Source of the DNA: Roseovarius indicus
GTDB lineage: Bacteria > Pseudomonadota > Alphaproteobacteria > Rhodobacterales > Rhodobacteraceae
Reading direction: 5' to 3'
NCBI RefSeq assembly: GCF_008728195.1
Contig: NZ_CP031598.1
Location: 3,286,001-3,350,000 of the forward strand
Length of the DNA stretch: 64,000 nt
Positions 1 to 21,122 of the stretch are shown here, piece after piece; positions within the stretch are counted from its first letter, which is position 1; each line of letters opens with the position of its first letter. The translations under genes and the position numbers were made by a program. The notes below the pieces were generated by a model. That model had not been told where the DNA came from, did no database searches, and saw nothing but the letters and a program-made list of their open reading frames with translations.

Positions 1-383
1 CGGAAATGCGGCTCAATGCCGATGGCGACATGGTGCTCGATGGCACGCTGACCACCGGCGGCCCGACCCCCGCAGGCGGCTGCGACGCCGTCTTCGACGC
101 GGAATTCGAGCGCCTCTCCGTCTCCGATCACGCCACGCTGATGTGGGAGAACGGCCACCTGCCCGCCGTGGGTGCGACGCTGCCGGGCGCGCCGATCAAC
201 GTGTCGGAGAAGATGGGCGGGATCCTGAACGAGCTTGAGCACGCGCATATCTACATCGAAGAGCTGCACGCCCGGCTGGCCTTCCAGGAAGAGCAGCGCC
301 AGGCACAGGAGGCGGTCAATATCGCGCTTTCCGAACAGCTCGCGGCCCTCGCGGCCCGGCTCGAAAAGCTGGAGGTCCGTTGA
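1..383 (+). CDS. Array gene 1 (3' part): secreted tail-fibre-like protein, cassette A
   Basis: Only the last 126 or so residues are inside the window; the reading frame is open at base 1. It begins inside the conserved DGPEMRLNADGDM segment and carries a type A C-terminal cassette (ERLSVSDHATLMW, GHLPAVG, LNELEHAHIYIEELH), followed by an alanine- and glutamate-rich coiled-coil tail. It is unusual in having lost one cysteine of the conserved second Cys pair: it reads PTPAGGCD where its paralogues read PTCAGGCD or similar. That leaves a single unpaired cysteine in this region, unless another lies upstream. Function unknown; the family is inferred to be exported because the complete members have signal peptides. 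Confidence 0.9.
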   Translation, partial: EMRLNADGDMVLDGTLTTGGPTPAGGCDAVFDAEFERLSVSDHATLMWENGHLPAVGATLPGAPINVSEKMGGILNELEHAHIYIEELHARLAFQEEQRQAQEAVNIALSEQLAALAARLEKLEVR

Positions 384-466
384 CGCAAGGCGGGCCCTGG
401 CTTACAAAAATCCTTTATTAACCAATGACGTTGCCCGCGTGCAGCGCTTGAACAAAGGATTTCAGT

Positions 467-1627
467 ATGAAGGTTTTTCCGCTCTGCGCCGCACTTGTCG
501 TCGCGGCCTTTCCTGTCACGGCCGAACAGGTCTTCAACGAGAATGTCATCGTCGGCGGCGGCCTGTGCGCCGGTAATTACTGCCAGGCCGGCACCAGCTT
601 TCCCGAGGGGCTGCTGCGGCTCAGCACCCAGTCGCCGCGCATCCATTTCAACGACGCCTCGGCCGTCAATCAGCACGAATGGCAGATCCGCGCCAACGAG
701 GACAGCAGCAGCTATCTCAGCATGTTCTCGATCCTCGACCTGACCGCGGCCACCACGCCCTTCACCCTGTTCGGCGGTGCGCCGGACAACGCGCTCTGGG
801 TCGACGGCCATGGGCTGGTGGGCCTCGGCACATCGCTGCCCCAGCAGGATCTGCACATCGTGGCGTCGGGCAACTACCCCGGCATAAGGCTGGAGCGTAC
901 ACAGGCCCCAGCCCATTCATGGGACATCCTGGCCGATCAGACAGGGTTCGGCATCCGGGATGTGACCAGCAACAACAAGCTGCCGTTCTTCATCGCCAGC
1001 GATGCGCCCCCCTGGGCGATCTGGCTCGACAGCGCCGGCTATCTCGGGCTCGGAACGGATGACCCCGCCGCGCCGCTGGAACTGCGGCGCGAGGACAGCT
1101 TCAACTTCTTCCGCATCACCGCCGCCGGCGCGACGTTCAACGAGTCGGTGGATTTCGTATTCACCGAGGGCCCGCTCGGCACCGGAGAACTGCGCTACAA
1201 CATCGTCGATACCGACGGACCCGAGATGCGGCTGAACGCCGATGGCGACATGCGGATCGAGGGCGCGCTGACCACCGGCGGCCCCGCCTGCGACAGCGGC
1301 TGCGACGCGGTGTTCGACGCCGGGTTCGAGCGCCTCTCGGTCTCCGACCATGCCGCGCTCATGTGGGAGAACGGCCACCTTCCGGCGGTCGGCCCCACCC
1401 TGCCGGGGGCACCGATGAACGTGTCGGAGAAGGTGGCCGGCATCCTGAACGAACTCGAGCATGCGCATATCTATATCGAAACCCTCCACCGACGGGCCGC
1501 AGCACAGGAAGACCAACTTGCCCGTCAGGCCGAACAGCTGGTCGCGCAGGGTGCGGCCCTTGCCCAGCAGCAGGCGCTTACCGCCCGGCTGATGGCCCGG
1601 CTGGACCAGCTTGAACAGGGCAGCTAA
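467..1627 (+). CDS. Array gene 2: secreted tail-fibre-like protein, cassette A
   Basis: A 386-residue protein with a signal peptide at about 1-19 (cleavage near VTA-EQ). The first Cys pair is LCAGNYC. Two modules follow: the first ends at GLGTSLPQQDLHI, the second at GLGTDDP. Then come the conserved FRITA...GPLGTGELRYN core, the second Cys pair (CDSGC) and cassette A. The tail is longer than in most paralogues and is rich in Gln, Ala and Leu, as expected for a coiled coil. AAAGGA at 454-459, seven bases before the ATG, supports the start. Its N-terminal module (EQVFNENVIV) is closest to array gene 15, 16 kb away. Function unknown. Confidence 0.9.
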   Translation: MKVFPLCAALVVAAFPVTAEQVFNENVIVGGGLCAGNYCQAGTSFPEGLLRLSTQSPRIHFNDASAVNQHEWQIRANEDSSSYLSMFSILDLTAATTPFTLFGGAPDNALWVDGHGLVGLGTSLPQQDLHIVASGNYPGIRLERTQAPAHSWDILADQTGFGIRDVTSNNKLPFFIASDAPPWAIWLDSAGYLGLGTDDPAAPLELRREDSFNFFRITAAGATFNESVDFVFTEGPLGTGELRYNIVDTDGPEMRLNADGDMRIEGALTTGGPACDSGCDAVFDAGFERLSVSDHAALMWENGHLPAVGPTLPGAPMNVSEKVAGILNELEHAHIYIETLHRRAAAQEDQLARQAEQLVAQGAALAQQQALTARLMARLDQLEQGS

Positions 1628-1755
1628 GCCCCGTCCGGGCAGGCGGACCTTCCGGTTTTCCTCCATGGACGGAGCATCGCGAGCCACTTAACGTATATCA
1701 CATAGCCAACGGGCGACCTCGCCCGGCTTCCCCATAGTTAATAAGGTTGCCCCGA

Positions 1756-2964
1756 ATGTCCTTCATTATCCGTACCGCCTTTCCCCTTGCCATCGCCCTC
1801 GCCGCCGCCCCCGCCTGGGCACAAGACGTCATCGGAGACGACCTGGTCCTCTCCGGCGACATCACCCAGAACGGGTTCGGACCGAATTTCTTCGATGCCG
1901 CGTATTCCTCGTTCAGCGGCAGCATGTGTCTCGGGAACAACTGCACCACCAGCGAAGCCAACGGCCTCGGCAACCCGCCCCTCAAACTCAAATGGTCCGA
2001 AGCGGCAATCCTTTTCGAGGATACCAGTAGCAGCAGCTTCGCCGACCGTGACTGGCGCATCGCGGCCACCGGCAGTGCCTCGCAGGAAACCTTCCAGATC
2101 CAGGATTGGGGCGCCGACTGGTCAACCGGCACCGCCACAGCGCCCTTCGTCATTGTCGGCGACGCGCCCGCCAACGCCCTCTGGCTCGACCACACGGGCA
2201 ATATCGGCTTTGGCACCTCCCTGCCACAGGCCGACCTGCACGTTATCGGCGCCAGCTCCGCCGCCCTGCGGATGGAGGCCACCTCCGGCACGTCCCGCAC
2301 CTGGCAGGCCAACGCGAGCGAGGCCAGTTTCTGGATCGCCGACGTGACCGCCAACACCACGCCCTTCGCCCTTGAGGCCAACACCCCCAACGACACGTTG
2401 TGGCTTGCCAGCACCGGCTTTGTGGGCATCGGCACCGCCAGCCCCGACGCCCCGCTCGAGGTCAGCAACGACGACACGTTCAGCTACTTCCGCATCACTG
2501 CCGAGCAGGCCGCGATCAACCAGTCGGCCGACATGACCTTCACCGGCGGGCCCTTGGGCACGGGTGAGTTCCGCTACAACATCGTCGATGGCGACGGGCC
2601 GGAAATGAAGCTCAACGCCAATGGCGACATGGAGATCGACGGCACGCTCACCACCGGCGGTCCGACCTGCGCGGGCGGCTGCGATGCGGTGTTCGACGCG
2701 GAATTCGAGCGTCTCTCGGTCACCGATCACGCGGCGCTGATGTGGGACAAGGGCCACCTTCCGGCGGTCGGCCCTACCCTGCCGGGCGAAGCGTTCAACG
2801 TCACCGAGAAGATGGGCGCCATGCTCAACGAGCTGGAGCATGCGCATATCTATATCGAGGAGCTGCACGCCGAGCTTGGCGCGCAGAAGGCCGAAAAGTC
2901 GGAAATGCAGGCCCAGATCGCCGCCCTGACCGCCCGTCTCGACGCGCTCGAGGTGGCCGAGTGA
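1756..2964 (+). CDS. Array gene 3: secreted tail-fibre-like protein, cassette A
   Basis: A 402-residue protein with a signal peptide at about 1-22 (PAWA-QD). The N-terminal module is the most divergent of the array: between the signal peptide and the Cys pair (CLGNNC) lies an extra segment rich in Phe, Ser and Gly. Modules end at GFGTSLPQADLHV and GIGTASPDAPLEV, followed by the common core, CAGGC and cassette A, with MWDKGHLPAVG in place of the usual MWENGHLPAVG. An in-frame TTG lies nine bases upstream, but AAGG at 1743-1746 is spaced correctly for the ATG at 1756. Function unknown. Confidence 0.9.
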   Translation: MSFIIRTAFPLAIALAAAPAWAQDVIGDDLVLSGDITQNGFGPNFFDAAYSSFSGSMCLGNNCTTSEANGLGNPPLKLKWSEAAILFEDTSSSSFADRDWRIAATGSASQETFQIQDWGADWSTGTATAPFVIVGDAPANALWLDHTGNIGFGTSLPQADLHVIGASSAALRMEATSGTSRTWQANASEASFWIADVTANTTPFALEANTPNDTLWLASTGFVGIGTASPDAPLEVSNDDTFSYFRITAEQAAINQSADMTFTGGPLGTGEFRYNIVDGDGPEMKLNANGDMEIDGTLTTGGPTCAGGCDAVFDAEFERLSVTDHAALMWDKGHLPAVGPTLPGEAFNVTEKMGAMLNELEHAHIYIEELHAELGAQKAEKSEMQAQIAALTARLDALEVAE

Positions 2965-3113
2965 CGCAAGCCGGTCCTTCCGGGGAGATTTTCCCCGGAA
3001 GGTCTGGAAAACCCGACTTTTTTCGTTAGTCTTTCGAGATTAGAAAAACCTTGTTCCGCGCAATTCCGGCGTGGCCTTGACGTTATTGCTTGATTAAAAA
3101 AGGGACCCAATCA

Positions 3114-4238
3114 ATGAAACATGCTCTCCTGACAGTTGCGACCGGAACGGCTCTCGCCCTTGGCTCCGCGACGCTGACGACCGCACAAACCGTCCTGTCG
3201 GGGGATCACAGCGTCGATGGCAAGCTATGCGTGGGCACCCCCTGCGACGGCGCCGAGACCTTCGACCAGATCGACGCGCAGAAGATCAAAGGCTCGCTGG
3301 TGTCGCTCCGCTTCGAAGACACCTCCGGCGCCACACACCCCAACCGCGACTGGCGCCTGCGCGTCAATGATGGCGGCAGCTTCGCCGATGGCGGGCTCGA
3401 CCGCTTCTCGATCGAGGATGTCGATGCCGGCACCATTCCGTTCACCATCGTCGGCGACGCCCCGACCAACTCGTTTTTCGTCAGCAACTTCGGCAATGTC
3501 GGCCTTGGCACGAGCTTGCCCGTCGGGCCCCTTCACATCGTGAACCAGGGCTACAGCCAGGTGAAGCTGGAATCGACGGGGACGCAGTCACGCACGTGGG
3601 ACCTGTATTCCAACGGGAACACCTTCACTGTCCGCGACAGCACCGACTTCAAGGACATTTTCGTTATCGGCAAGTCAGCGCCCAGCCATTCGCTGACGGT
3701 CAGTCAGATCACCGGCAATGTCGGGGTCGGAACACAGTATGCCAGCGCCCCGTTCGAGGTGAGCCGGGACGAAACCTACAACTATTTCCGCATCACCGCC
3801 GCGCAGGCCCTGATCAACCAGTCCGTCGACATCACCTTCACCGGCGGGCCGCTCGGCACCGGCGAGCTGCGCTACAACATCGTCGATGACGACGGTCCCG
3901 AGATGAAGCTCAACGCCGAAGGCGACATGGAGATCGACGGCACGCTGACGACCGGCGGCCCGACCTGCGCCAGCGGCTGCGACGCGGTCTTCGATGCCGA
4001 ATTCGACCGCCTGTCGGTCACCGAGCATGCCGCGCTGATGTGGGAAAACGGCCACCTTCCCGCCGTGGGCCCCACCCTGCCCGGCCAACCCATGAACGTC
4101 TCCGAGAAGATGGGCGCCGTGCTCAACGAGCTCGAGCATGCACATATCTATATCGAGGAGCTGCACGCCGAGCAGGCGGCCGCCAATGCCCGCATCGCAC
4201 GGCTGGAGGCGGCCTTGCAGGCGCTGACAGAGCACTGA
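3114..4238 (+). CDS. Array gene 4: secreted tail-fibre-like protein, cassette A
   Basis: A 374-residue protein with a signal peptide at about 1-24 (MKHALLTVATGT...TTA-QT). Its first 130 or so residues and its upstream leader are close to those of array gene 6, which differs in the middle and at the C-terminus. The first Cys pair is LCVGTPC. Modules end at GLGTSLPVGPLHI and GVGTQYASAPFEV; the region between them is hypervariable. The core, CASGC and cassette A follow, then a short tail. An AAAAAAGGGA tract before the ATG is the ribosome binding site; an in-frame TTG at 3090 is less likely. Function unknown. Confidence 0.9.
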   Translation: MKHALLTVATGTALALGSATLTTAQTVLSGDHSVDGKLCVGTPCDGAETFDQIDAQKIKGSLVSLRFEDTSGATHPNRDWRLRVNDGGSFADGGLDRFSIEDVDAGTIPFTIVGDAPTNSFFVSNFGNVGLGTSLPVGPLHIVNQGYSQVKLESTGTQSRTWDLYSNGNTFTVRDSTDFKDIFVIGKSAPSHSLTVSQITGNVGVGTQYASAPFEVSRDETYNYFRITAAQALINQSVDITFTGGPLGTGELRYNIVDDDGPEMKLNAEGDMEIDGTLTTGGPTCASGCDAVFDAEFDRLSVTEHAALMWENGHLPAVGPTLPGQPMNVSEKMGAVLNELEHAHIYIEELHAEQAAANARIARLEAALQALTEH

Positions 4239-4282
4239 TCCGCCAAATCTGACCGGGGAATGCCCTGCGCTGTCAGCTCATG

Positions 4283-4303: not shown

Positions 4304-4443
4304 TGCGACCGCGGCGCCAAAGATGGGCGGCCAGGCGAATAAAGTGATCGGAAACCGGAACAGGCCAATGTTTTACTTGTGACAATCCGGGCGGCGGGTA
4401 AGCTCCATCAGAGCTTTGATCCTCTATCGCCAAAGGAATTGCC

Positions 4444-5649
4444 GTGCCCCGTCTTTCTCATGCCCTGACCCTGTCCACATGCCTTGCGGTGCCTCTCCCC
4501 GCCCTCGCCCAGACCGTGCTGTCGGGCAATTACAGCATCGACGGCTTTCTCTGCGTCGGCAACGCCTGCACCGGCTCCGAGACGTTTGATGCGTTTGACG
4601 ACCTCAAGATCAAGGGCTCGGCCATCGGTATCCTGTTCGAGGATACCGAGGGTTCCTCGACCCATGACTGGCGGCTTCAGGCCAACGCCACGAACGAGGA
4701 TTCCTTCTTCCTCCGCGATGTGACCGACGGCACGACACCGTTCAAGATCCTCGGCTTCGCACCGGACAACAGCCTGTTTGTCGACAGCGACGGTGAGATC
4801 GGCCTCGGCACCTCGGTCCCGCAAGCGCGACTGCATGTCGAGACGACCGCGAGCTCCGGCATCCGGATCAACCGGTCCAACACAAGCGCCGGTCAGCAGG
4901 CCTGGGAAACGTATATCGACCCAAACGGGAAATTCGCCATCCTGGACGCCACAAACACCACGGCGCCTATCGGGATCTCGCCGGGGACACCGTCGGGGGC
5001 GCTGCTCTTCGGGTCCACCCGCACCGTCTTCAACAATGCATCCGAGGACTTCAATTTTGAAGTCCGGGGCCAAGCCTACAGACCGCTGATCTTTGCCAAT
5101 GCCGGCACCGGCCGCGTGGGCATAGGCACCGACGGCCCCGACGCCCCGCTCGAAGTCAGCAGCAACGAGACGTTCAGTTACTTCCGCATCACCGCCGAGC
5201 AGGCCGCGATCAACAAGTCGGTCGACGTCACCTTCACCGGCGGCCCCCTCGGCACCGGCGAGCTGCGCTACAACATCGTCGATGGCGACGGGCCCGAGAT
5301 GAAGCTGAACGCCAATGGCGACATCGAGATCGGCGGCACGCTCACTACCGGCGGCCCCACCTGCGCCAGCGGCTGCGACGCGGTGTTCGACGCCGAATTC
5401 GAGCGCCTCTCCGTCACCGAGCATGCCGCGCTGATGTGGGACAAGGGCTATCTTCCGGCGGTCGGCCCGACCCTGCCGGGCCAGCCCATGAACGTCTCGG
5501 AAAAGATGGGCGCCGTTCTGAACGAACTGGAACACGCGCATATCTATATCGAAGAGCTGCACCGCGAGAACGCCGCCCGGGAAGCGCGCTTCGAGGCGCG
5601 GATCGCCGCCCTGACCGCCCGTCTCGATGCGCTCGAGACGGGTGACTGA
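4444..5649 (+). CDS. Array gene 5: secreted tail-fibre-like protein, cassette A, long middle
   Basis: A 401-residue protein that starts with GTG at 4444; AAAGGA at 4432-4437 supports this. The signal peptide ends near PALA-QT at about residue 22. The first Cys pair is LCVGNAC. The middle section is about 30 residues longer than in most paralogues and contains SGIRINRS, a feature shared with array gene 12 (AGIRINRS). Modules end at GLGTSVPQARLHV and GIGTDGPDAPLEV. The core, CASGC and cassette A (MWDKGYLPAVG) follow, with a tail ending ARLDALETGD. Function unknown. Confidence 0.9.
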   Translation: MPRLSHALTLSTCLAVPLPALAQTVLSGNYSIDGFLCVGNACTGSETFDAFDDLKIKGSAIGILFEDTEGSSTHDWRLQANATNEDSFFLRDVTDGTTPFKILGFAPDNSLFVDSDGEIGLGTSVPQARLHVETTASSGIRINRSNTSAGQQAWETYIDPNGKFAILDATNTTAPIGISPGTPSGALLFGSTRTVFNNASEDFNFEVRGQAYRPLIFANAGTGRVGIGTDGPDAPLEVSSNETFSYFRITAEQAAINKSVDVTFTGGPLGTGELRYNIVDGDGPEMKLNANGDIEIGGTLTTGGPTCASGCDAVFDAEFERLSVTEHAALMWDKGYLPAVGPTLPGQPMNVSEKMGAVLNELEHAHIYIEELHRENAAREARFEARIAALTARLDALETGD

Positions 5650-5796: not shown

Positions 5797-6930
5797 ATGA
5801 AACATGCTCTCCTGACAGTTGCGACCGGAACAGTGCTGACCCTGGGTTCCGCCACGCTGACGACCGCACAGACCGTCCTGTCGGGGGATCACAGCGTCGA
5901 TGGCAAACTTTGCGTCGGCTCGTCCTGCCACGGCGCCGAGACCTTCGACCAGATCGACGCGCAAAAGATCAAAGGCACGCTGGTGTCGCTCCGCTTCGAG
6001 GATACCTCGGGCTCCACCCACCCCGGCCGCGACTGGCGTCTGCGCGTCAATGACGGCGGCAGCCTCTCCACCGGCGGGCTCAATCGCTTCTCGGTCGAGG
6101 ATGTGGACGCCGGCACCATCCCCTTCACCATCGTCGGCGACGCCCCCGACAACGCCCTTTTCATCGACCGCTTCGGCCGGATCGGGCTGGGCACCACGCT
6201 GCCCTTCAACGATCTGCACATCGTCAGCAGCTACAGGCCCACCATTCGCCTCGAACAGGACAACACCGCCGGCCCGGTCGCGCAGATCTTCGAACTCGAG
6301 GCCGACGATCGCGGCTTTCGGATCAACGACGCGAGCAACTACAATGATGCCATCTTCCAGATCGAGGACGGGGCCCCGGCCTATGCCCTCAGTATCGCCG
6401 GAACAGGCAATGTCGGGTTCGGAACGCTGTCCCCCTCCGCCCCGCTCGAGCTGAGCCGCGACGACACCTACAACTATTTCCGCATCACCGCCGCGCAGGC
6501 CGCGATCAACGAGTCCGTCGACATCACCTTCACCGGCGGCCCCCTCGGCACCGGCGAGCTGCGCTACAACGTCGTCGATGGCGACGGCCCCGAGATGAAG
6601 CTCAACGCCGATGGCGACATGCAGATCGACGGCACGCTGACGACCGCGGGCTCCTGTTCGGTCGGTTGCGACGCGGTGTTCGAGGCCGACTACCCCCTGC
6701 CCTCGATCGAGGACCACCTGGCCGAGACCCTCGCGCTCGGCCACCTGCCCAATGTCGGCCCCACCCGCCAAGGCGAGCCCTGGGACATGACCGACAAGAT
6801 GGGCCGCGTGCTCAACGAGCTCGAGCACGCCCACCTCTATATCGGTCAGTTGCACGCCCAGAACAGCGCCCAGGCCGCCCAGATCGCCGCGCTTTCGGCC
6901 CGGCTCGATGCGATAGAGGCGGATGACTGA
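5797..6930 (+). CDS. Array gene 6: secreted tail-fibre-like protein, cassette B
   Basis: A 377-residue protein with the same signal peptide and N-terminal module as array gene 4 (MKHALLTVATGT, LSGDHSVDGKLCVG). It diverges from gene 4 in the hypervariable middle (about residues 140-205), rejoins it in the FRITAAQA...GTLTT core, and then switches to cassette B: CSVGC, DYPLPSIEDH, ALGHLPNVGPTRQGEPW, MGRVLNELEHAHLYIGQLH. Leader sequences from about 5680 also match those of gene 4. AAGAAGGA before the ATG is the ribosome binding site. Function unknown; the gene 4/gene 6 pair is the clearest case of mosaic structure. Confidence 0.9.
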   Translation: MKHALLTVATGTVLTLGSATLTTAQTVLSGDHSVDGKLCVGSSCHGAETFDQIDAQKIKGTLVSLRFEDTSGSTHPGRDWRLRVNDGGSLSTGGLNRFSVEDVDAGTIPFTIVGDAPDNALFIDRFGRIGLGTTLPFNDLHIVSSYRPTIRLEQDNTAGPVAQIFELEADDRGFRINDASNYNDAIFQIEDGAPAYALSIAGTGNVGFGTLSPSAPLELSRDDTYNYFRITAAQAAINESVDITFTGGPLGTGELRYNVVDGDGPEMKLNADGDMQIDGTLTTAGSCSVGCDAVFEADYPLPSIEDHLAETLALGHLPNVGPTRQGEPWDMTDKMGRVLNELEHAHLYIGQLHAQNSAQAAQIAALSARLDAIEADD

Positions 6931-10840: not shown

Positions 10841-12010
10841 GTGACCCGTTCCCTTTTGCCCGCAGCCCTTCTCGCCCTGCCCCTCGCCACCGCCGCCCCT
10901 GCCGACGAGACCGTCTTCGACGACCACATCGTCATCGGCAACCAGTGCGTCGGCCCCGACTGCGCCACCGATGACGAGTTCGGCTTCAGCACCGCGATCT
11001 TCAAGGACCCGCTGATCCGGCTCGAGTTCAACGACACGTCGGCACTCGCCCCCGCCAATGACTGGCGGTTCCTGTTCAACGATCCCTCAGGCGTCGGTGC
11101 CCAATCCTATTTCAGGCTGGAAGACTCGACCGCCGGCACCACCCCCTTCACCATCATGGCCGGCGCGCCGAGCACCGCCTTCCACATGAACGCGGCTGGC
11201 AGGGTCGGGCTTGGCACCACGCTTCCCCAGAACACGCTCCACATCGCCGACGAAGGCTCTGTCACGTTCCGGCTGGAAGAGACCACGGCACCATATTCCT
11301 ACACATTCAACGCAAACGATTTCGGCTTTTGGATCCGGGATCGCACGGCCGACACCGTGCCCTTCGTCATCCAGGCGACGTCGCCGAACAATTCCCTCTG
11401 GGTGGCTGACGACGGCTATATCGGCCTCGGCACCAGCGTTCCGGCCGCACCGCTCGAGCTCTGGAGCGACGAGACCTTCAATTTCTTCCGCCTCTCCGCC
11501 TCGGGGGCCGCGATCAACCAGTCGGTCGACATCACCTTCACCGGCGGCCCCCTCGGCACGGGCGAGCTGCGCTACAACATCGTCGACGGCGACGGGCCCG
11601 AGATGAAGCTCAACGCCGATGGCGACATCGAGATCGAAGGGACGCTCACGACCGCGGGTTCCTGCTCGGTGGGCTGCGACGCGGTGTTCGAGGCCGACTA
11701 CCCCCTGCCCTCGATCGAGGATCACCACGCGCAAACGCTCGCCCTCGGCCACCTGCCCAACGTGGGCCCCACTCGGCCCGGCGAGCCGTGGGACGTGACC
11801 GACAAGATGGGCCGCATCCTCAACGAGCTCGAGCACGCGCATCTCTTCATCGCCGGCCAGCAGGAAGAGATCACGCGCCAGCAGCAGGAGCTTGCCACGC
11901 AACGCGCCGAGCTGGCCGAAACCGGCGCCGCGCTGTCCGAGACCCGGGCCGCGCTGGCCGCGCTGACCGCCCGGCTGGCAGCGCTCGAAACGAGCCGGCG
12001 GGCAGACTGA
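10841..12010 (+). CDS. Array gene 10: secreted tail-fibre-like protein, cassette B, long coiled coil
   Basis: A 389-residue protein with a GTG start at 10841, preceded by GGAG at 10831-10834. The signal peptide is MTRSLLPAALLALPLATAA. The first Cys pair is QCVGPDC. Modules end at GLGTTLPQNTLHI and GLGTSVPAAPLEL. The core is followed by cassette B (CSVGC, LPSIEDHHAQTLALGHLPNVG). The C-terminal tail is among the longest of the array, with repeated Gln-, Glu- and Ala-rich heptads, and should form an extended coiled coil. Function unknown. Confidence 0.9.
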   Translation: MTRSLLPAALLALPLATAAPADETVFDDHIVIGNQCVGPDCATDDEFGFSTAIFKDPLIRLEFNDTSALAPANDWRFLFNDPSGVGAQSYFRLEDSTAGTTPFTIMAGAPSTAFHMNAAGRVGLGTTLPQNTLHIADEGSVTFRLEETTAPYSYTFNANDFGFWIRDRTADTVPFVIQATSPNNSLWVADDGYIGLGTSVPAAPLELWSDETFNFFRLSASGAAINQSVDITFTGGPLGTGELRYNIVDGDGPEMKLNADGDIEIEGTLTTAGSCSVGCDAVFEADYPLPSIEDHHAQTLALGHLPNVGPTRPGEPWDVTDKMGRILNELEHAHLFIAGQQEEITRQQQELATQRAELAETGAALSETRAALAALTARLAALETSRRAD

Positions 12011-12114: not shown

Positions 12115-13215
12115 ATGCACCGCCTTCTTCCCGCGCTCGCCATCGCCAGCCTCCTGCCCGCCACCGCCCCTGCCCAGACCCTGCTGTCGGGAAATCACAG
12201 CATCTCGGGCGGCGTCTGCATCGGCCCCAGCTGTGGCACGGGCGAACTCTTTGCAAGCACCTTGAAACTCAAGGGCAACAGTGTCCGGCTGTTTTTCGAG
12301 GATATCTCCACATCCCCCGGCTTTCCCACAAATGACTGGGTGCTCGAAGCGAATGCGTCATCCGGCACCGGAGATTATTTCGCCCTCAGGGACGCCGATA
12401 CCTTCCAGACGATCATGCGGCTCGACGCGGGCGCTCCTTGGTATTCGCTCTACGTCTCCTCGGACGGCGACGTGGGGATGGGAACCTCCCTGCCGCTGGC
12501 CAACCTGCACGTGCTCGATACCGATGGCACCGCGAGCCTTCGGCTGGAGGGGACAACGGGCACGCCCTACAGTTGGGATCTGCGCGGCAACCAGGGCGGC
12601 TTCTATGTCTACGATATCGGGGCCGGAACCCTGCCCTTGCGGATAAATGCAGGCGCGCCCAGCTCGTCCTTCGCAATCGGCTCCGACGGGAACGTGGGCA
12701 TCGGCACCAACAGCCCCGACGCCCCGCTCGAGGTCAGCGACAACGAGACGTTCAGCTACTTCCGCATCACCGCCGAGAATGCTTCGGTGAACCAGTCTGT
12801 CGACATCACCTTCACCGAGGGCCCGCTGGGCACTGGTGAGATGCGCTACAACATCGTCGATGGCGACGGGCCCGAGATGCGGCTGAACGCCAACGGCGAC
12901 ATGGTGCTCGATGGCACGCTCACCACCGGCGGGCCTACCTGCGACACGGGCTGCGACGCGGTATTCGATGCCGGTTTCCCCCGTCTGTCCGTCACCGACC
13001 ATGCCGCCCTGATGTGGGAGAACGGCCACCTGCCGGCGGTCGGCCCCACCCTGCCCGGCGCGCCGATGAACGTATCGGAGAAGATGGGCGCCATGCTCAA
13101 CGAGCTGGAGCATGCGCATATCTATATCGAACAGCTGCACCAGCGCATCGCGGCGCAAGAGGCCGAGACCGCCGAACTGCGGGCGCTGGTCCGGGATATC
13201 GCCGCGCGGCGCTAG
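12115..13215 (+). CDS. Array gene 11: secreted tail-fibre-like protein, cassette A
   Basis: A 366-residue protein, the shortest complete member. The signal peptide ends near APA-QT at about residue 20. The first Cys pair is CIGPSC. The first two thirds resemble array gene 8 (cassette B), but the last part is cassette A and almost identical in DNA to the end of array gene 9: I see one mismatch between 10471-10656 and 12938-13123. AAAGGAATTGCC precedes the ATG; an in-frame TTG at 12109 is less likely. The tail is short. Function unknown. Confidence 0.9.
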   Translation: MHRLLPALAIASLLPATAPAQTLLSGNHSISGGVCIGPSCGTGELFASTLKLKGNSVRLFFEDISTSPGFPTNDWVLEANASSGTGDYFALRDADTFQTIMRLDAGAPWYSLYVSSDGDVGMGTSLPLANLHVLDTDGTASLRLEGTTGTPYSWDLRGNQGGFYVYDIGAGTLPLRINAGAPSSSFAIGSDGNVGIGTNSPDAPLEVSDNETFSYFRITAENASVNQSVDITFTEGPLGTGEMRYNIVDGDGPEMRLNANGDMVLDGTLTTGGPTCDTGCDAVFDAGFPRLSVTDHAALMWENGHLPAVGPTLPGAPMNVSEKMGAMLNELEHAHIYIEQLHQRIAAQEAETAELRALVRDIAARR

Positions 13216-13323: not shown

Positions 13324-14601
13324 ATGCTCCGCCTTTCGCCCCTTCCGCTCCGGCTGTCCGCCACCGCCCTGCTGGCCCTTACAGCACTTCTGCCCGCCCC
13401 GTCCTCCGCCGAGGTGCTGAGCAGCACCAACCCCACCATCATCAACAACCTCTGTGTCGGGTTCGATTGCGCCAACAACGAAAGCTTTGGGAGCAGGCTC
13501 GACCTCTCCCGCCTGCGGCTGAAAAACTTCGAAACCTCGATCGAATTCGTCGACACCTCGACCGCTTCGGGGTTTGCCACCACCGACTGGACGCTGCGCG
13601 CCAACGAGGGCGGCAACGGCGGCCTCAACGGCTTTTCGATCGTGGATGCCACCAACGGGTCGGCCCCGTTCACAATCGAAGCCAGCGCGCTCAGCAACAG
13701 CCTCTATGTGGCCTCGGAAGGCGATATCGGGCTGGGCACCTCCCTGCCGCAGGCGCCGCTGCACCTTGAAACGAGCGCGGATGCGGGGATCCGGATCAAT
13801 CGCTCGGGGATGTCGCAGGCCTATGAAATGCTGATTGATGCCCTCGCGGATTTTGTCATCCTCGATGTCGACGCCGGGACCGGCCCTTTCGTGATCCGCG
13901 ATGGCGGTGTTCCGAATTATTCCTTCGATCTCACCCCGACAGGGATGATCTTGAACCGCTTACAAAACTCGACGTTCAACCTGCGCTATTCCTCCGCAGA
14001 CAACGTCAATGCGTTCTTTGTGGAAGGTGACAACGGCAATGTCGGCCTCGGCACCGACAGCCCCGACGCCCCGCTCGAGATCAGCGACGACAACACCTTC
14101 AGCTTCTTCCGCATCACCGCCACCGGCGCGCCCGTCAACCAGTCTGTCGACATCACCTTCACCCAGGGGCCGCTGGGAACGGGCGAGTTCCGCTACAACA
14201 TCGTCGATGGCGACGGGCCCGAGATGCGGCTGAACGCCAATGGCGACATGGTGCTCGACGGCACGCTGACCACCGCCGGCTCCTGCTCGGCAGGCTGTGA
14301 CGCGGTGTTCGATGCCGACTACCCCCTGCCCAGCATCGAGGATCACCAGGCCCGCACCCTCGCCCTCGGCCACCTGCCAAATGTCGGCCCCACCCGCGAC
14401 GGCGAGCCGTGGGACGTGACCGACAAGATGGGCCGCATCCTCAACGAGCTCGAGCATGCGCATCTCTATATCGGCCAGCTGCATCGCGACCTGACGGCGC
14501 AACAGGCGGAAAAGACCGAGCTGAAACGCCAGGTCGATATGCAGGCCGCCCAGATCGCGGCCCTCGTCACCCGGCTCGACGTGCTTGAAACCGCCGACTG
14601 A
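13324..14601 (+). CDS. Array gene 12: secreted tail-fibre-like protein, cassette B, long middle
   Basis: At 425 residues this is the largest member. The signal peptide is about 29 residues (SSA-EV). The first Cys pair is LCVGFDC. The middle section is extended and contains AGIRINRS, as in array gene 5. Modules end at GLGTSLPQAPLHL and GLGTDSPDAPLEI. The core has QGPLGTGEFRYN, then CSAGC and cassette B, with a long tail (LKRQVDMQAAQIAALVTRLDVLE). AAGGAAATGCC before the ATG serves as ribosome binding site. Function unknown. Confidence 0.9.
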   Translation: MLRLSPLPLRLSATALLALTALLPAPSSAEVLSSTNPTIINNLCVGFDCANNESFGSRLDLSRLRLKNFETSIEFVDTSTASGFATTDWTLRANEGGNGGLNGFSIVDATNGSAPFTIEASALSNSLYVASEGDIGLGTSLPQAPLHLETSADAGIRINRSGMSQAYEMLIDALADFVILDVDAGTGPFVIRDGGVPNYSFDLTPTGMILNRLQNSTFNLRYSSADNVNAFFVEGDNGNVGLGTDSPDAPLEISDDNTFSFFRITATGAPVNQSVDITFTQGPLGTGEFRYNIVDGDGPEMRLNANGDMVLDGTLTTAGSCSAGCDAVFDADYPLPSIEDHQARTLALGHLPNVGPTRDGEPWDVTDKMGRILNELEHAHLYIGQLHRDLTAQQAEKTELKRQVDMQAAQIAALVTRLDVLETAD

Positions 14602-14706: not shown

Positions 14707-15864
14707 ATGCCCAAAGCCCTTTGCACCGCCACCGCCCTTGCCCTTCTTCCCGTCCCCGCCATCGCAGACGACGTCTTCAACGACCATGTCATCGTGCGCA
14801 GTACCATGCTTTGCGTCGGCCTCTCCTGCGTCGATGGTGAACCGACCGTTACCGGCTACCAGGCGGCCGTGAAGATCAAGGATTTCACCGCCACGATCCT
14901 GTTCGACGATACCTCGACCAATGCCGACCTGCCCTTTCACGACTGGCGGCTCAACGCCAACGAGCGGAACCTGTACGGCCGGAACGCCTTCTACATCACC
15001 GACGTGACCTCCGGCACCGATCCGTTCTGGGTCGAGGGCGGCGCCCCGGACGACGCGCTTTTCGTCGCCGATGACGGGTCCGTCGGGCTTGGCACCTCCA
15101 CGCCCCTGTCGGACCTCCACATCGTCGGCGACGGCGCCTTTCCGCGGATCAGGCTGGAACATGTCGACGGCGTCTCCCACGCTTGGGAGGTCGGCGCCTC
15201 CTCGACCTTCTGGTACATCCGCGACGTAACCGGGGACGGCACGCCCGTGGGCGTCGAGGCAGGCACGCCATCCAACACCTTCGTCATCCGCAACACAGGC
15301 TGGGTCGGCATCGGCACCTCGCTCCCCGACGCCCCGCTCGAAGTCAGCAGCGACGACACCTACAGCTATTTCCGCATCACTGCCGAGCAGGCCGCGATCA
15401 ACCGGTCGGCCGATGTCACCTTCACCGGCGGCCCCCTCGGAACCGGCGAGCTGCGCTACAACATCGTCGACGGCGACGGGCCGGAAATGCGGCTCAATGC
15501 CGATGGCGACATGGTGCTCGACGGCACGCTGACAACCGGCGGGCCCACCTGCGACGGCGGGTGCGACGCGGTATTCACCAAACGCCGGATCATTCCCGAG
15601 GGCGAATATGCCGCCCGCATGTGGGCCGACGGCCACCTGCCCTTCGTTGGCCCGACCCGGCCGGAGGCGCCGATCAATGTCAGCGAGAAGATGGGCGGGA
15701 TGCTCAACGCGCTCGAACATGCCCATGTGTTCATCGAGCGGCAGAACGGCCGCATCGCGACGCTCGAGGCGGAGATTGCCGCGCTTCGCGACGCGCAGGC
15801 GGCACAGATCGCCACCCTGACCCAGCGGCTTGCGGCGCTGGCGGGCACGACGAACGCGGAGTGA
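14707..15864 (+). CDS. Array gene 13: secreted tail-fibre-like protein, cassette C
   Basis: A 385-residue protein; the ATG at 14707 follows a CGGAG box and opens a signal peptide (MPKALCTATALALLPVPAIA-DD). The first Cys pair is LCVGLSC. Its N-terminal half resembles array gene 9, but it ends in cassette C (RRIIPEGEYAARMW, LNALEHAHVFIERQN) like array gene 7. Modules end at GLGTSTPLSDLHI and GIGTSLPDAPLEV. The leader shares GCGCTATCCT and AATTGCCCGCCC with the gene 9 leader. Function unknown. Confidence 0.9.
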   Translation: MPKALCTATALALLPVPAIADDVFNDHVIVRSTMLCVGLSCVDGEPTVTGYQAAVKIKDFTATILFDDTSTNADLPFHDWRLNANERNLYGRNAFYITDVTSGTDPFWVEGGAPDDALFVADDGSVGLGTSTPLSDLHIVGDGAFPRIRLEHVDGVSHAWEVGASSTFWYIRDVTGDGTPVGVEAGTPSNTFVIRNTGWVGIGTSLPDAPLEVSSDDTYSYFRITAEQAAINRSADVTFTGGPLGTGELRYNIVDGDGPEMRLNADGDMVLDGTLTTGGPTCDGGCDAVFTKRRIIPEGEYAARMWADGHLPFVGPTRPEAPINVSEKMGGMLNALEHAHVFIERQNGRIATLEAEIAALRDAQAAQIATLTQRLAALAGTTNAE

Positions 15865-16007: not shown

Positions 16008-17243
16008 ATGCCCTTTCGTCCCCCGGCGCTTTGCGCCATCCTTGCCCTGTCCGGCCTTGCCGCGCCCGCGCTGGCGCAGGATGTGTTCACCGACGGTGTT
16101 CGGATCTCGGACGTCAATCCGACAAGCGCTGATCTTTACGTGGAGGACGATAGCGTCGTCAGGGGCCATACCTGCATTGGTGAAGTCTGCAATCTGGCCG
16201 AAAGCTTTGACGTTGGGTACATTCTGAAGTTGAACACGAGTTCGCCAAGCATCTTTTTCGACGACGACAGTGGTTTTAGCGGCTCAACACCTTCGAACGA
16301 CTGGCGGATCAGGGTCAACGATCCCGAGCCGTTTACCGAGGGCGGGCTGAACCGGTTTTCCATTGAGGACATCACCGCCGCAACCATCCCCTTCACCATT
16401 GCAGCGGGCGCGCCCGAGAATGCCTTCTGGATGACCAGCGCCGGCAATATCGGTCTCGGCACCCTGCTGCCGCAGGACCGGATTCACGCGGTCGGCACCT
16501 TCGGCCCCAGCGTCCGGTTCGAGCAGACCGGCAACGGGCTTGTGCCCGCGCAGACATGGCGCCTGATCGGACAGAGCAGCTTCAACATCGCCGACACCAC
16601 TGCCGGCACCACGCCGTTCCGTCTGGAACGCGCGGCGCCCACGAACGCGCTCTACATCGCCGATACCGGCAACGTGGGCTTCGGCACCGCCACGCCCGAC
16701 GCGCCCTTCGAGGTCAGCGACGACGCAACCTTCAGCTACTTCCGCATCACCGCCGAGCAGGCCGCTGTGAACCAGTCGGTCGACATCACCTTCACCGGCG
16801 GCCCCCTCGGCACGGGCGAGCTGCGCTACAACGTCGTCGATGGCGACGGGCCGGAAATGAAGCTCAACGCCAATGGCGACATGGAGATCGACGGCACCCT
16901 CACCACCGGCGGCCCCACCTGCGCGGGCGGCTGCGACGCCGTGTTCGACAGTAATTTCAAGCGCCTCTCCGTAGCCGAGCATGCCGCGCTGATGTGGAAG
17001 AACGGCCACCTTCCCGCCGTCGGCACCACCCGGCCCGGCGCCCCGATGAACGTGGCCGAGAAGATCGGCGGCATTCTCAACGAACTCGAGCACGCGCATA
17101 TCTACATCGCCGAACTCGAAGCCCGCGATCGGGCACGCGAGGCCGAGAACGCCAGGCTCGGCGACCGGGTCGCGCGGCTTGAGGCGATGCTGGCACAGGT
17201 CGACGGGATGCTTGACCATCCCGTGTCCCCTCCCACCGACTGA
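16008..17243 (+). CDS. Array gene 14: secreted tail-fibre-like protein, cassette A, extended N-terminus
   Basis: A 411-residue protein; the ATG at 16008 follows GGGAG and opens a signal peptide ending PALA-QD at about residue 23. Before the first Cys pair (CIGEVC) there is an extra segment (VRISDVNPTSADLYVEDDS) shared in type with array genes 16 and 17. Modules end at GLGTLLPQDRIHA and GFGTATPDAPFEV. Cassette A follows the core, with the variant MWKNGHLPAVGTT. The tail is Arg- and Glu-rich and ends with a Pro-rich stretch rather than the usual ALE motif. Function unknown. Confidence 0.9.
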   Translation: MPFRPPALCAILALSGLAAPALAQDVFTDGVRISDVNPTSADLYVEDDSVVRGHTCIGEVCNLAESFDVGYILKLNTSSPSIFFDDDSGFSGSTPSNDWRIRVNDPEPFTEGGLNRFSIEDITAATIPFTIAAGAPENAFWMTSAGNIGLGTLLPQDRIHAVGTFGPSVRFEQTGNGLVPAQTWRLIGQSSFNIADTTAGTTPFRLERAAPTNALYIADTGNVGFGTATPDAPFEVSDDATFSYFRITAEQAAVNQSVDITFTGGPLGTGELRYNVVDGDGPEMKLNANGDMEIDGTLTTGGPTCAGGCDAVFDSNFKRLSVAEHAALMWKNGHLPAVGTTRPGAPMNVAEKIGGILNELEHAHIYIAELEARDRAREAENARLGDRVARLEAMLAQVDGMLDHPVSPPTD

Positions 17244-17296
17244 GGGCGACCCGGCCCCGGCATTTCGGATCACACGATTCAAAAGAAGGACATATC

Positions 17297-18409
17297 ATGA
17301 AACCCTATCTTGCCTGCGTCGCCCTCGCGGCCACCGCAATTCCGGCCGCCGCCGAACAGGTCTTCAACGAGAATGTCATCGTCAACGGCAGCCTCTGCGC
17401 CGGCGGCGAATGTGCCCCGGGCGAGGTCTTTGCCGATGAATCCCTCAAGGTGAAGAAATTTGCCGCCCGCATACTTCTCGACGATGCCTCGAACACGGGC
17501 CAGCATGACTGGCAACTGCGCGCCAACGAGACCGGCAGCAATGGCGACAGCCTGTTCGCCATCGACGACATTACCGCGGGGACGACGCCGTTCACCCTGT
17601 TTGGCGGGGCGCCGGACAACTCACTCTACATCGATGAAGATGGGCAGGTCGGGTTAGGCACATCGCTACCCACAGCGAGCTTGCACCTGATCGAAGGGGA
17701 CGGCGCGCCGGCCCGAATTCGGATGGAGGAAACTCTTGGTAGCCCCACCAGCTGGGACTTGGTTTCATTTAATACTATTTTTTATTTGAGAGACCAGATA
17801 GGCAATACGACCCCGGTCATGATCGAGTCGCGCGCGCCCAGTCAATCACTCAGGATAAGGGAAGACGGCAACATCGGCCTCGGCACCGGCAATCCACAGG
17901 CCCCGCTGGAGCTTTCCCGCGACGAGACGTTCAACTTCTTCCGGATCACCGCCACTCAGGCGGCGGTCAACGAGTCCGTCGACATCACCTTCACCGGCGG
18001 CCCCCTCGGCACGGGCGAGCTGCGCTACAACGTCGTCGATGGCGACGGGCCCGAGATGAAGCTGAATGCCGATGGCGACATGGAGATCGACGGCACCCTC
18101 ACCACCGGCGGCCCCACCTGCGCGGGCGGCTGCGACGCAGTGTTCGACGCCGGGTTCGCCCGCCTGTCGGTCAAGGAGCATGCTGCGCTGATGTGGGAAA
18201 ACGGCCACCTTCCGGCGGTCGGCCCCACGCTTCCCGGCGCGCCGATGAACCTGTCGGAGAAGATGGGCGCGATGCTGAACGAACTGGAACACGCGCATAT
18301 CTACATCGAGCAATTGCACGACGATCGTGACGCCGCCCAGGTGCGGATCGCCGGGCTGGAAGCCCGGCTCGCGCGGGTCGAGGCCCTGTTGGCGGCGGCC
18401 GCCGACTGA
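17297..18409 (+). CDS. Array gene 15: secreted tail-fibre-like protein, cassette A
   Basis: A 370-residue protein with the shortest upstream spacer (53 bases). The signal peptide ends near AAA-EQ at about residue 19. The N-terminal module (EQVFNENVIV.G.LCAG) matches array gene 2. Modules end at GLGTSLPTASLHL and GLGTGNPQAPLEL. Part of the hypervariable middle, about 17755-17790, is AT-rich compared with its surroundings (TTTAATACTATTTTTTATTT), which could mark imported sequence. The core, CAGGC and cassette A follow. AAAAGAAGGA precedes the ATG. Function unknown. Confidence 0.9.
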   Translation: MKPYLACVALAATAIPAAAEQVFNENVIVNGSLCAGGECAPGEVFADESLKVKKFAARILLDDASNTGQHDWQLRANETGSNGDSLFAIDDITAGTTPFTLFGGAPDNSLYIDEDGQVGLGTSLPTASLHLIEGDGAPARIRMEETLGSPTSWDLVSFNTIFYLRDQIGNTTPVMIESRAPSQSLRIREDGNIGLGTGNPQAPLELSRDETFNFFRITATQAAVNESVDITFTGGPLGTGELRYNVVDGDGPEMKLNADGDMEIDGTLTTGGPTCAGGCDAVFDAGFARLSVKEHAALMWENGHLPAVGPTLPGAPMNLSEKMGAMLNELEHAHIYIEQLHDDRDAAQVRIAGLEARLARVEALLAAAAD

Positions 18410-18428
18410 CCCCAGCCGCATCGGAGGT

Positions 18429-18457
18429 TTGACAACCCGCTGCCGGGCGTCATTACT
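18429..18457 (+). promoter_or_regulatory. Candidate sigma70 promoter of array gene 16
   Basis: TTGACA at 18429-18434, a 17-bp spacer, then ATTACT at 18452-18457. It lies in the spacer after array gene 15, about 100 bases before the ATG of array gene 16. Confidence 0.55.
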
Positions 18458-18559
18458 CGCCCGGCGATGCGGCCGCACGAAGTGCGCCTGTGCGAAAATT
18501 ATTTTTCAAAACCATGGCATTCAGCCGCAACCCGGCCAGCCATTTCCTAGGGAGACCCC

Positions 18560-19786
18560 ATGCTATTCCGCAACCCCAAGTTTCTAATCAGTTCGGCCCT
18601 TTTCCTTCTGGCCGCCCCTGTCGCCGCGCAGGTCACCACTTTTCCCGACGACGTCGTGATCGAGGGCGACCTGACCGTCGACGCGGGCACCACCGGCAGC
18701 ATGTATGTCGAGGGGGACAGCGTCATCGACGGCTCCCTCTGCCTTGGCAACACCTGCCAGCCGACCACGACCTTCGCGAATGACGAAACGCTTATCCTGA
18801 GATATACGCAGCATTCCATCGTCTTCGACGACACGTCCAGCCCGACCGCGCCCAACCGCGACTGGACATTGCGCGTCAACGATCCCAACTCCGTCGCCAC
18901 GGGCGGGATAGACAAGTTCGCGGTCGAGGACGACACCGCCGGCACGACGCCCTTCACCATCGCCGGCGGCGTGCCGGACAACGCCTTCTGGCTCGACACC
19001 AGCGGGTATCTGGGCCTCGGCACCTCGCTGCCGCAGACGAGTGTGCATGTCGTGTCGCCCCTCGCCTCGGCGGTGATGCGGCTCGAGGAGACGAACGGCA
19101 CGGCGGGCGGGTTCGACATCGCGGCCTCGGATGCGGCCTTCCAAGTCGCCAGCAGCGGCAACAGGACCATCCCGCTCGTGATCGAGGGCACCGCCCCCAG
19201 CAATTCTCTCTACGTCGCCGGTACGGGCTACGTAGGCTTCGGGACCGACACCCCCGCCGCACCGTTCGAGGTCAGCGACGACGACAGTTTCAGCTTTTTC
19301 CGCATCACCGCGACCGGGGCGCCCGTCAACCAGTCGGCCGACGTGGTGTTCACCCAGGGACCGCTCAATACCGGCGAGTTCCGCTACAATATCGTCGACG
19401 GCGACGGGCCCGAGATGCGGCTCAATGCCGATGGCGACGTCACGATCGCCGGCAAGCTCACCACCGCCGGCTCCTGCTCGGTCGGCTGCGACGCGGTCTT
19501 CGATGCCGACTACCCCCTGCCTTCGATCGAGGACCACGTGGCCGAAACGCTTGCGCTGGGCCACCTGCCCAATGTCGGCCCGACCCGGAATGGCGAGCCC
19601 TGGGACGTGACCGACAAGATGGGCCGCATCCTCAACGAGCTCGAGCACGCCCATCTCTTCATCGGGCAGCTCAACGACCGCAACGCCGCGCAACAGGCCC
19701 GGATCGAGGCACAGGACAGCCGGATCGAGGCCCTGACGGCCGAGCTGGCCTCGCTGGCCGCCCGGCTCGACGCGCGACAGAACTGA
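18560..19786 (+). CDS. Array gene 16: secreted tail-fibre-like protein, cassette B, extended N-terminus
   Basis: A 408-residue protein with a signal peptide of about 23 residues (PVAA-QV). An additional beta-rich segment (DLTVDAGTTGSMYVEGDS) precedes the first Cys pair (CLGNTC), as in array genes 14 and 17. Modules end at GLGTSLPQTSVHV and GFGTDTPAAPFEV. The core differs slightly (QGPLNTGEFRYN). Cassette B follows (CSVGC, LPSIEDHVAETLALGHLPNVG), then a coiled-coil tail. AGGGAGACC before the ATG is the ribosome binding site. Function unknown. Confidence 0.9.
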   Translation: MLFRNPKFLISSALFLLAAPVAAQVTTFPDDVVIEGDLTVDAGTTGSMYVEGDSVIDGSLCLGNTCQPTTTFANDETLILRYTQHSIVFDDTSSPTAPNRDWTLRVNDPNSVATGGIDKFAVEDDTAGTTPFTIAGGVPDNAFWLDTSGYLGLGTSLPQTSVHVVSPLASAVMRLEETNGTAGGFDIAASDAAFQVASSGNRTIPLVIEGTAPSNSLYVAGTGYVGFGTDTPAAPFEVSDDDSFSFFRITATGAPVNQSADVVFTQGPLNTGEFRYNIVDGDGPEMRLNADGDVTIAGKLTTAGSCSVGCDAVFDADYPLPSIEDHVAETLALGHLPNVGPTRNGEPWDVTDKMGRILNELEHAHLFIGQLNDRNAAQQARIEAQDSRIEALTAELASLAARLDARQN

Positions 19787-19799
19787 AGGCACACCCGCC

Positions 19800-19843
19800 G
19801 GGCGGCCCGGCCTTGACACGGGCCGCCCTCGCCCTGCTATCCT
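19800..19843 (+). promoter_or_regulatory. Candidate promoter of array gene 17 with the -35 box in a hairpin loop
   Basis: TTGACA at 19813-19818 and CTATCC at 19837-19842 (18-bp spacing) form a plausible promoter. The -35 hexamer lies inside the 11-base loop of a perfect 9-bp inverted repeat (GGGCGGCCC at 19800-19808, GGGCCGCCC at 19820-19828), which could act as an operator or as the terminator of array gene 16. Confidence 0.45.
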
Positions 19844-19940
19844 CGGTCCACCTGCCGGCCGGGGCGGCAGGATCCCGGCCCGTTCACTTGCGCCCGCCCC
19901 CGGCCCCGTCGCAGGCGCCCTTTCCCGGAAAGCCTGCGCC

Positions 19941-21122
19941 ATGTCTCACCGTTTCCCGACGCTCCTCGCCCTGCCGCTGCTCGTCACAGCCCCCGCGCTT
20001 CACGCACAGGAGGTGGTCTTCGGCGAAGGCGTGGACATCTCCGACATCGACACCACCCAGGCCGATCTCTTCGTGACCGGCGACACGGTGCTCGACGACA
20101 GCGTCTGCATCGGCAACGCCTGCGTCGAGACCGAGATGTTCCCCGAGGACACGCTGCTGCGCCTGACCAACCCCGATATCCGCGTGGAATTCGTCGATAC
20201 CAGCTCCGCCGCTGGCAGCTTTCCGAGCAATGACTGGGAAATCCAGATCAACGACACTGCGAATTTCGGGCAGGAGCGCTTTTCCATAGCCGATACGACC
20301 GCCGGCACCGTGCCCTTCACCGTCGAGGCGGGTGCGCCGAGCAGCGCGCTCTGGATCGCCGCCGGCGGCGAGGTCGGGATGGGCACGTCCCTCCCCCAGT
20401 CCGACCTGCATGTCGCCGCCTCGACGCTGCCGACGCTGCGGCTGGAACAGGTCGGGTTCGGGGCCTTTCCGCCCTTTTTCTGGACCCTCGCGGGCAATCA
20501 CAACGTGTTCTACATTGGCAATGCAAACGGCAACGGCTTTCCGTTCAGCATCAATGACGAAGCCCCGAATGCCAGCCTGGCACTTGCCGCGGACGGCAAT
20601 GTCGGCCTCGGCACCGACAGCCCCGGCGCCCCGCTCGAGATCAGCGACGACGAGACCTTCAGCTACTTCCGCATCACCGCCACCGGGGCGCCGGTCAACC
20701 AGTCGGTCGACATCACCTTCACCCAGGGGCCGCTGGGCACCGGTGAGATGCGCTACAACATCGTCGATGGCGACGGGCCCGAGATGCGCCTCAACGCCGA
20801 TGGCGACATGGTGCTCGACGGCACGCTCACCACCGGCGGGCCGAGCTGCTCCGTCGGTTGCGACGCGGTGTTCGACGCCGATTTCGAACGGCTTTCCGTT
20901 ACCGACCACGCCGCGCTGATGTGGGAGAACGGCCACCTGCCGGCGGTCGGCCCCACCCTGCCCAATGCACCGATGAACGTGTCCGAGAAGATGGGCGGCA
21001 TCCTGAACGAACTGGAGCACGCCCATATCTACATCGAGGATCTCAACGCGCGCCTCGCCGCACAGGAGGCGCTGAACGCCCGGCTCATCGACCGGCTCGA
21101 CGCGCTGGAAGCGGCCGACTGA
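19941..21122 (+). CDS. Array gene 17: secreted tail-fibre-like protein, cassette A, extended N-terminus
   Basis: A 393-residue protein, the last of the array. The signal peptide ends near LHA-QE at about residue 22. The extended N-terminus (VDISDIDTTQADLFVTGDT) precedes CIGNAC. Modules end at GMGTSLPQSDLHV and GLGTDSPGAPLEI. The core is followed by CSVGC, which is otherwise typical of cassette B, joined to cassette A (ERLSVTDHAALMW); this is a hybrid junction. The tail ends LIDRLDALEAAD. A hairpin at 21196-21220 follows. Function unknown. Confidence 0.9.
   Translation: MSHRFPTLLALPLLVTAPALHAQEVVFGEGVDISDIDTTQADLFVTGDTVLDDSVCIGNACVETEMFPEDTLLRLTNPDIRVEFVDTSSAAGSFPSNDWEIQINDTANFGQERFSIADTTAGTVPFTVEAGAPSSALWIAAGGEVGMGTSLPQSDLHVAASTLPTLRLEQVGFGAFPPFFWTLAGNHNVFYIGNANGNGFPFSINDEAPNASLALAADGNVGLGTDSPGAPLEISDDETFSYFRITATGAPVNQSVDITFTQGPLGTGEMRYNIVDGDGPEMRLNADGDMVLDGTLTTGGPSCSVGCDAVFDADFERLSVTDHAALMWENGHLPAVGPTLPNAPMNVSEKMGGILNELEHAHIYIEDLNARLAAQEALNARLIDRLDALEAAD

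Follow-up and report, generated by a model that had tools for sequence, protein, structure and literature searches.

The 64,000-nt window of Roseovarius indicus analyzed here opens within a tandem gene array and contains 16 complete paralogues (g08 to g23) and the 3′ end of g07, all on the + strand. When the contiguous sequence was read upstream of the window, an extension that the first-pass annotation had proposed, it showed where g07 begins and added six more genes. The whole array comprises 23 complete same-strand (+) paralogues, g01 to g23, at genome positions C1:3277804-3307122 (29.3 kb); the row of at least 17 same-direction copies with short spacers described earlier is confirmed and is larger than claimed. 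A full reading frame with a start codon is present in 23/23 copies, the encoded proteins are 361 to 425 amino acids long, and the intergenic spacers measure 33 to 205 bp. Searching the genome with g15 as the query (E ≤ 0.01) gave 25 matches, every one inside the array. The window features are as follows.

1..383, + strand: g07, 3′ end; start upstream at genome position 3285172; full protein 403 aa, without one C-terminal Cys
467..1627, + strand: g08, 386 aa; front half 84% identical in nucleotides to a Roseovarius CCMP836_Bin15 gene
1756..2964, + strand: g09, 402 aa
3114..4238, + strand: g10, 374 aa; closest own-array relative of its front half is g12
4444..5649, + strand: g11, 401 aa; GTG start; second module longer
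5797..6930, + strand: g12, 377 aa
7073..8251, + strand: g13, 392 aa
8398..9528, + strand: g14, 376 aa
9633..10745, + strand: g15, 370 aa; protein used for structure modeling
10841..12010, + strand: g16, 389 aa; GTG start
12115..13215, + strand: g17, 366 aa; front half 93% identical in nucleotides to a CCMP836_Bin15 gene, head differs
13324..14601, + strand: g18, 425 aa; second module longer
14707..15864, + strand: g19, 385 aa
16008..17243, + strand: g20, 411 aa; nucleotide identity to a CCMP836_Bin15 gene 97% in the front, 77 to 83% in core and head, lower in the tail
17297..18409, + strand: g21, 370 aa
18560..19786, + strand: g22, 408 aa; front half 94% identical in nucleotides to a CCMP836_Bin15 gene, head differs
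19941..21122, + strand: g23, last gene of the array, 393 aa; front half 95% identical in nucleotides to a CCMP836_Bin15 gene
21253..22380, - strand: prfB-like flanking gene (release factor 2), named by eye

Judged by eye, the upstream flank of the array holds amidase-, MraZ-, and prfA-like genes, and the downstream flank holds prfB- and penicillin-binding-protein-like genes. Also upstream are a lipoprotein-like gene resembling a muramidase (L009:7426-8172) and, beside it, a gene for a helix-turn-helix protein with pentapeptide-like repeats (L009:5921-7288), both judged by eye; this stretch does not align with the metagenome-assembled genome (MAG) Roseovarius CCMP836_Bin15, though both of its sides do. 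Long open frames run antisense (- strand) opposite many array genes across window positions 1 to 21122 (e.g., 19884-21149, 421 aa) and are probably a by-product of high GC content and conserved codons.

From the N terminus, each protein consists of a signal peptide, two tandem modules that form the variable N-terminal half, a core, a head, and a C-terminal helix. Mean identity is 0.39 over residues 25 to 212, 0.77 over residues 213 to 285 (approximately the conserved beta core), and 0.65 over residues 286 to 345 (the head, of which three types were distinguished by eye). A simple rule detects a signal-peptide-like N terminus in 23/23 proteins, in agreement with the earlier claim for each complete copy. 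The N-terminal modules end in the fiber motif G-x-G-T-x-x-P, and both G-x-G-T modules, previously noted as GLGT/GIGT, are invariant in the 16 complete window genes. The two Cys pairs are likewise present in 16/16 of these genes; over the whole array, the first pair occurs in 23/23 and the second is complete in 21/23 (one Cys of that pair is missing in both g02 and g07). A monomer model of g15 (pLDDT 89) has beta strands of 3 to 7 residues between residues 27 and 270 and a C-terminal helix of 45 residues (325 to 369). The coiled-coil tail proposed earlier is partly upheld: the long helix is predicted in this one protein, but heptad periodicity was clearly above that of shuffled sequences in only one of four proteins tried, and for that reason we call a coiled-coil tail no more than likely. 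A Pfam scan (E ≤ 1) of 4 of the 23 array proteins gave no match to the S74 peptidase domain.

In sequence and predicted structure, the array proteins resemble trimeric beta-helical fibers, namely phage tail fibers and the mosaic adhesive trimers (MATs) of Bdellovibrio. A profile comparison (E value of 2.9e-10) aligns their G-x-G-T-x-x-P modules with corresponding motifs in Bd2133 (8ond), the solved chain of which begins at residue 662, and the fiber motif and local beta fold are common to the array and phage tail fibers (T4 gp34; PHROGs 9942 and 18345). The earlier description of secreted, diversified, appendage-like proteins is supported by the signal peptides, by this similarity, and by a family-wide link to the type II secretion system (T2SS) presented below. 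What the first-pass annotation had missed, beyond an array that it recognized correctly, were the upstream part, the mosaicism, the link to secretion, and the precedent for the layout.

Among the best 120 of 366 public matches, non-identical relatives with ≥94% identity over full or nearly full length were found for at least 21 of the 23 genes, g09 and g14 being the two without one. All of the 120 listed relatives that carry an organism name are from Roseovarius, and g07, g18, g20, and g22 have matches at 95 to 99% among proteins named Roseovarius indicus. An Emiliania huxleyi culture was the origin of R. indicus EhC03 (PMC4945805). The array of CCMP836_Bin15 shares the left flank (87 to 89% nucleotide identity over 4.2 and 2.3 kb), and in Roseovarius UBA3070 and bin_ce_oilr1.024 (L080 and L081) the 3′ end of a fiber gene precedes a prfB-like gene, as it does here; the genomic place of the array is old. 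We also checked whether the array could be an assembly artifact, as had been raised at first. This explanation was rejected and not borne out, given non-identical relatives of at least 21 of the 23 genes at ≥94% identity elsewhere (best 120 of 366 matches) and the array of another Roseovarius assembly beside the same left flank. The 23 copies are the largest number seen in the genus, followed by 20 matches in the CCMP836_Bin15 genome (G062).

Co-occurrence was scored in 394 genomes from 393 genera, taken from a collection that holds one genome per species; at most 4 fiber and 10 companion first-look candidates were scored per genome, so that single copies may be missed. The fiber was found in 20 genomes, a small Ig/FN3-like companion gene was found in 20, and both were found in 19; only this genome has the fiber without the companion, and only G235 has the companion without the fiber. 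GspG was present in 51/394 genomes, among them 19/19 of the other fiber-positive and 20/20 of the companion-positive genomes. Fiber and GspG shared a contig in 14/19 genomes and lay on different contigs in 5/19; on shared contigs, they were 3.9 to 5.4 kb apart in 11 cases and 9.5 kb, 98 kb, and 857 kb (G410) apart in one case each. Across 56 fiber loci (12 of them in Marimonas arenosa, 5 in Roseovarius CCMP836_Bin15), at least two T2SS clusters were found in 21, a separate companion lay within 1 kb in 31, and L041 contained a fused pair; the companion is fused to the fiber in an acidobacterial MAG. Within the genus (84 genomes), the companion occurs in 7, which are exactly the 8 fiber-positive genomes minus this one, and GspG occurs in 5/8 fiber-positive genomes versus 14/76 others (P = 0.013). 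We hold this family-level link to the T2SS with high confidence.

Marimonas arenosa is another large fiber repertoire, with twelve fiber loci in one genome (L049, L053, L055, L058, L068, L073-L076, L078, L082, and L084); two of these are tandem runs ending at contig ends, and one has companion and T2SS clusters. Elsewhere, a T2SS-linked gene (L056:14388-17480) encodes a single chain that joins an ArsP-like permease, FG-GAP repeats, and a UnbV/ASPIC domain, and clustering placed a relative of it in 25/56 loci. Methyltransferase- or sulfotransferase-like genes follow the fiber gene at L056:11165-13398 and NZ_CP034347.1:67276-68876, a placement that may point to a connection with surface glycans.

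The same association is carried on plasmids. Eight of 72,556 plasmid records match a GspL query, the same eight match the companion, and seven of the eight also match the fiber; the Tropicibacter oceani strain has its fibers on another of its plasmids. Plasmid pMME07001 of Roseovarius faecimaris carries gspD to gspM genes, a gene annotated as protein N, fiber matches at eight places, two companions, and SEL1 and FG-GAP genes. The Tropicibacter fiber plasmid carries rfbABCD, and the plasmid of Phaeobacter sp. G2, from an E. huxleyi culture, carries polysaccharide export genes; rhamnose-operon plasmids of roseobacters are called biofilm plasmids (PMC10090131). The ninth fiber plasmid record, from Diaphorobacter, is outside the T2SS/companion context: in this betaproteobacterium (Diaphorobacter sp. 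HDW4B, L116:11755-14853), two adjoining genes are annotated as “tail fiber domain-containing,” and no T2SS genes are listed nearby. The tie between this fiber family and the T2SS is newly seen here, as is the mosaicism of the array, and no description of the T2SS-companion-fiber set was found in the literature searched.

The genome studied here is an exception. It is rated 99.99% complete, and neither GspG (TIGR01710, E ≤ 1e-15) nor the companion (E ≤ 1e-4) was found in it. No GspD scored over the cutoff; one secretin, in a 480-aa frame, fell far below it and presumably belongs to a Tad pilus. PF03934 was tried and rejected as a T2SS marker: its sole match here is in a 778-aa frame that looks Tex-like by eye and has no relative of the T2SS neighbor clusters around it, and GspG was chosen as the marker because of this Tex-like match. 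Among the best 120 matches listed for the companion and GspL searches, most of them nameless, no protein was named R. indicus, which hints that the lack is general. Either the T2SS locus was lost and the fibers take another route, or it is on a plasmid absent from the isolate or the assembly, or the proteins are periplasmic.

A pairing this close could mean that, instead of being adhesins, the fibers belong to the extracellular portion of the T2SS or of another appendage, for instance as tip or sheath subunits capped by the companion. The acidobacterial fusion is what such a role would lead one to expect, as is the strict pairing of the fiber with both GspG and the companion in genomes other than this one. 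However, 32 of the 51 GspG-positive genomes show no fiber, indicating that the T2SS does not need it; moreover, 23 copies are kept here without GspG, and a structural subunit needs no 23 divergent front halves. We regard an apparatus part as improbable.

Comparisons within the array and with 14 genes of CCMP836_Bin15 (whose genome gave the 20 matches) revealed a mosaic. Synonymous divergence (pS) is 0.56 in the front, 0.47 in the head, and 0.34 in the core, a drop that indicates recombination between back halves, since protein constraint alone would not produce it. Trees built separately from the front, core, and head are mutually incompatible (approximately unbiased [AU] test, P ≤ 2e-4 in each of six comparisons), a conflict that counts as supporting evidence only, because the front region is highly diverged. 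The comparison across species supplies the direct evidence. The best match was in CCMP836_Bin15 for 16/23 fronts, 5/23 cores, and 7/23 heads. Only six fronts (g04, g08, g17, g20, g22, and g23) exceeded 80% identity, at 81 to 97%, and the best cross-species matches of core and head were often to genes other than the one matched by the front. Breaks in identity occur within genes: g20 matches the CCMP836_Bin15 gene at 0.92-1.00 up to about codon 240 and at 0.77-0.83 beyond it. Among seven pairs tested (these six and g19, at 73%), the spacer preceding the matched front half was likewise the best match in 7/7, and the final 240 bp of the gene before it were in 5/7, suggesting that the moving unit is the head, the spacer, and the next front half, with exchange points in the conserved back half. 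As far as the sequences tell, the array appears to diversify by recombination within that conserved back half. In the front halves of the seven cross-species pairs tested, dN/dS was 0.04 to 0.42, which indicates that those front modules are kept and are not free to drift. The selection for variety suspected at the outset fits these data: the fronts are 39% identical on average yet under purifying constraint (seven pairs tested), whereas similarity is greater among the back ends, which are swapped. We consider the array and its mosaic nature nearly certain.

Mosaic structure and cassette exchange could also serve a store for antigenic or receptor-type variation, in which one or few copies are expressed at once and receive new fronts by recombination, allowing escape from phages, protists, or competitors; a precedent is a differentially expressed large tandem array of surface proteins (PMC7971322). 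Unlike silent cassettes, however, all 23 copies have a start codon, a signal peptide, and a full frame, and no single expression site was seen. The ≥94% relatives of at least 21/23 genes (best 120 of 366 matches) suggest slow rather than rapid change. Such a store seems unlikely. More doubtful still is the idea that the array is a decaying leftover from the loss of the T2SS and companion, for which the failure to find GspG, the companion, and a GspD over the cutoff in a 99.99% complete genome would speak: 23/23 frames are intact, the dN/dS values of the seven cross-species pairs indicate constraint on the front halves, and the copy number is the largest seen in the genus (23, the next being 20 matches).

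With moderate confidence, we favor a recombining repertoire of secreted adhesive fibers with variable N-terminal parts. The array, its homology, co-occurrence, mosaicism, and purifying selection on several front halves were established computationally; trimerization, surface display, adhesion, the end that binds, and the ligands are inferred. In this recombining repertoire, each gene would encode a secreted, probably trimeric beta-helical fiber with a Sec signal peptide, most likely serving in attachment to glycans or surfaces. Binding may fall to the variable N-terminal half and trimerization to a shared C-terminal base, recombination in the conserved back half would move the head, spacer, and next front half as a cassette, and the companion may act as an anchor or export partner. 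A broader and tentative proposal, which we think may well not hold in full, is that an unnamed T2SS module of marine alphaproteobacteria (T2SS, Ig-like companion, and short fiber) exports interchangeable trimeric fibers, that some Roseovarius species converted the fiber gene into a recombining set of some 20 or more genes whose N-terminal binding parts differ, and that in this species the set became independent of the T2SS and companion and its products leave by another exit. The locus joins phage-like fibers outside Bdellovibrio, a defined T2SS locus that several roseobacters carry on plasmids, and a module-swapping tandem array, three elements not joined in the literature searched. If the fibers bind surfaces, the array would amount to a collection of marine binding proteins shuffled by nature. 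The near-exact pairing of fiber and companion offers a testable handle on T2SS cargo choice or anchoring, and a genome without a detectable T2SS raises the question of an alternative fiber exit.

A remnant of prophage tail-fiber genes is highly improbable and was rejected: the proteins are similar to tail fibers and three Pelagibacter phages match them, but only weakly (best E value of 9e-5), all copies have signal peptides, the flanks are host-like (prfB-, penicillin-binding-protein-, and amidase-like) with no phage structural gene recognized by eye adjoining the array, one viral-contig scan (query A3) found no relative, and the family adjoins T2SS genes elsewhere. Phage tail fibers differ from the array proteins, which have Sec signal peptides, no S74 match in the four scanned, and no recognized phage genes adjoining. 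The NCBI “tail fiber domain-containing protein” entries on roseobacter plasmids (e.g., pMME07001) are the same family, annotated by name only.

The layout itself, for which the first-pass annotation knew of no named system, has a precedent in the p28-omp locus of Ehrlichia chaffeensis, described as 22 tandemly arranged paralogues encoding outer-membrane proteins with a barrel structure (PMC7971322). Both are tandem paralogous exported proteins of an alphaproteobacterium, 22 there and 23 here; however, the p28-omp products are barrels, whereas the array proteins look fiber-like, and the g15 model (1 of 23 proteins; strands of 3 to 7 residues, a 45-residue helix, pLDDT 89) does not show an outer-membrane beta-barrel fold.

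The MATs of Bdellovibrio bacteriovorus are, according to Caulton et al. 2024 (PMC10769870), 21 paralogues of typically ~1,000 aa that are trimeric and surface-displayed, with a conserved beta-rich domain of ~130 aa directly after the signal peptide and a conserved N-terminal domain opposed to a diversified C-terminal tip. Both families have a signal peptide and beta-helical modules with the motif G-x-G-T-x-x-P-x-x-x-L, and both are many-membered (21 MATs, 23 array genes) with parts exchanged mosaically. The array proteins, in contrast, are 361 to 425 aa long and are encoded in one tandem row, and their family is found with the T2SS and companion; they vary in the N-terminal half and share the C-terminal half, the reverse polarity. 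The array proteins are thus relatives in kind of MATs and tail fibers, but their polarity is not that of the MATs.
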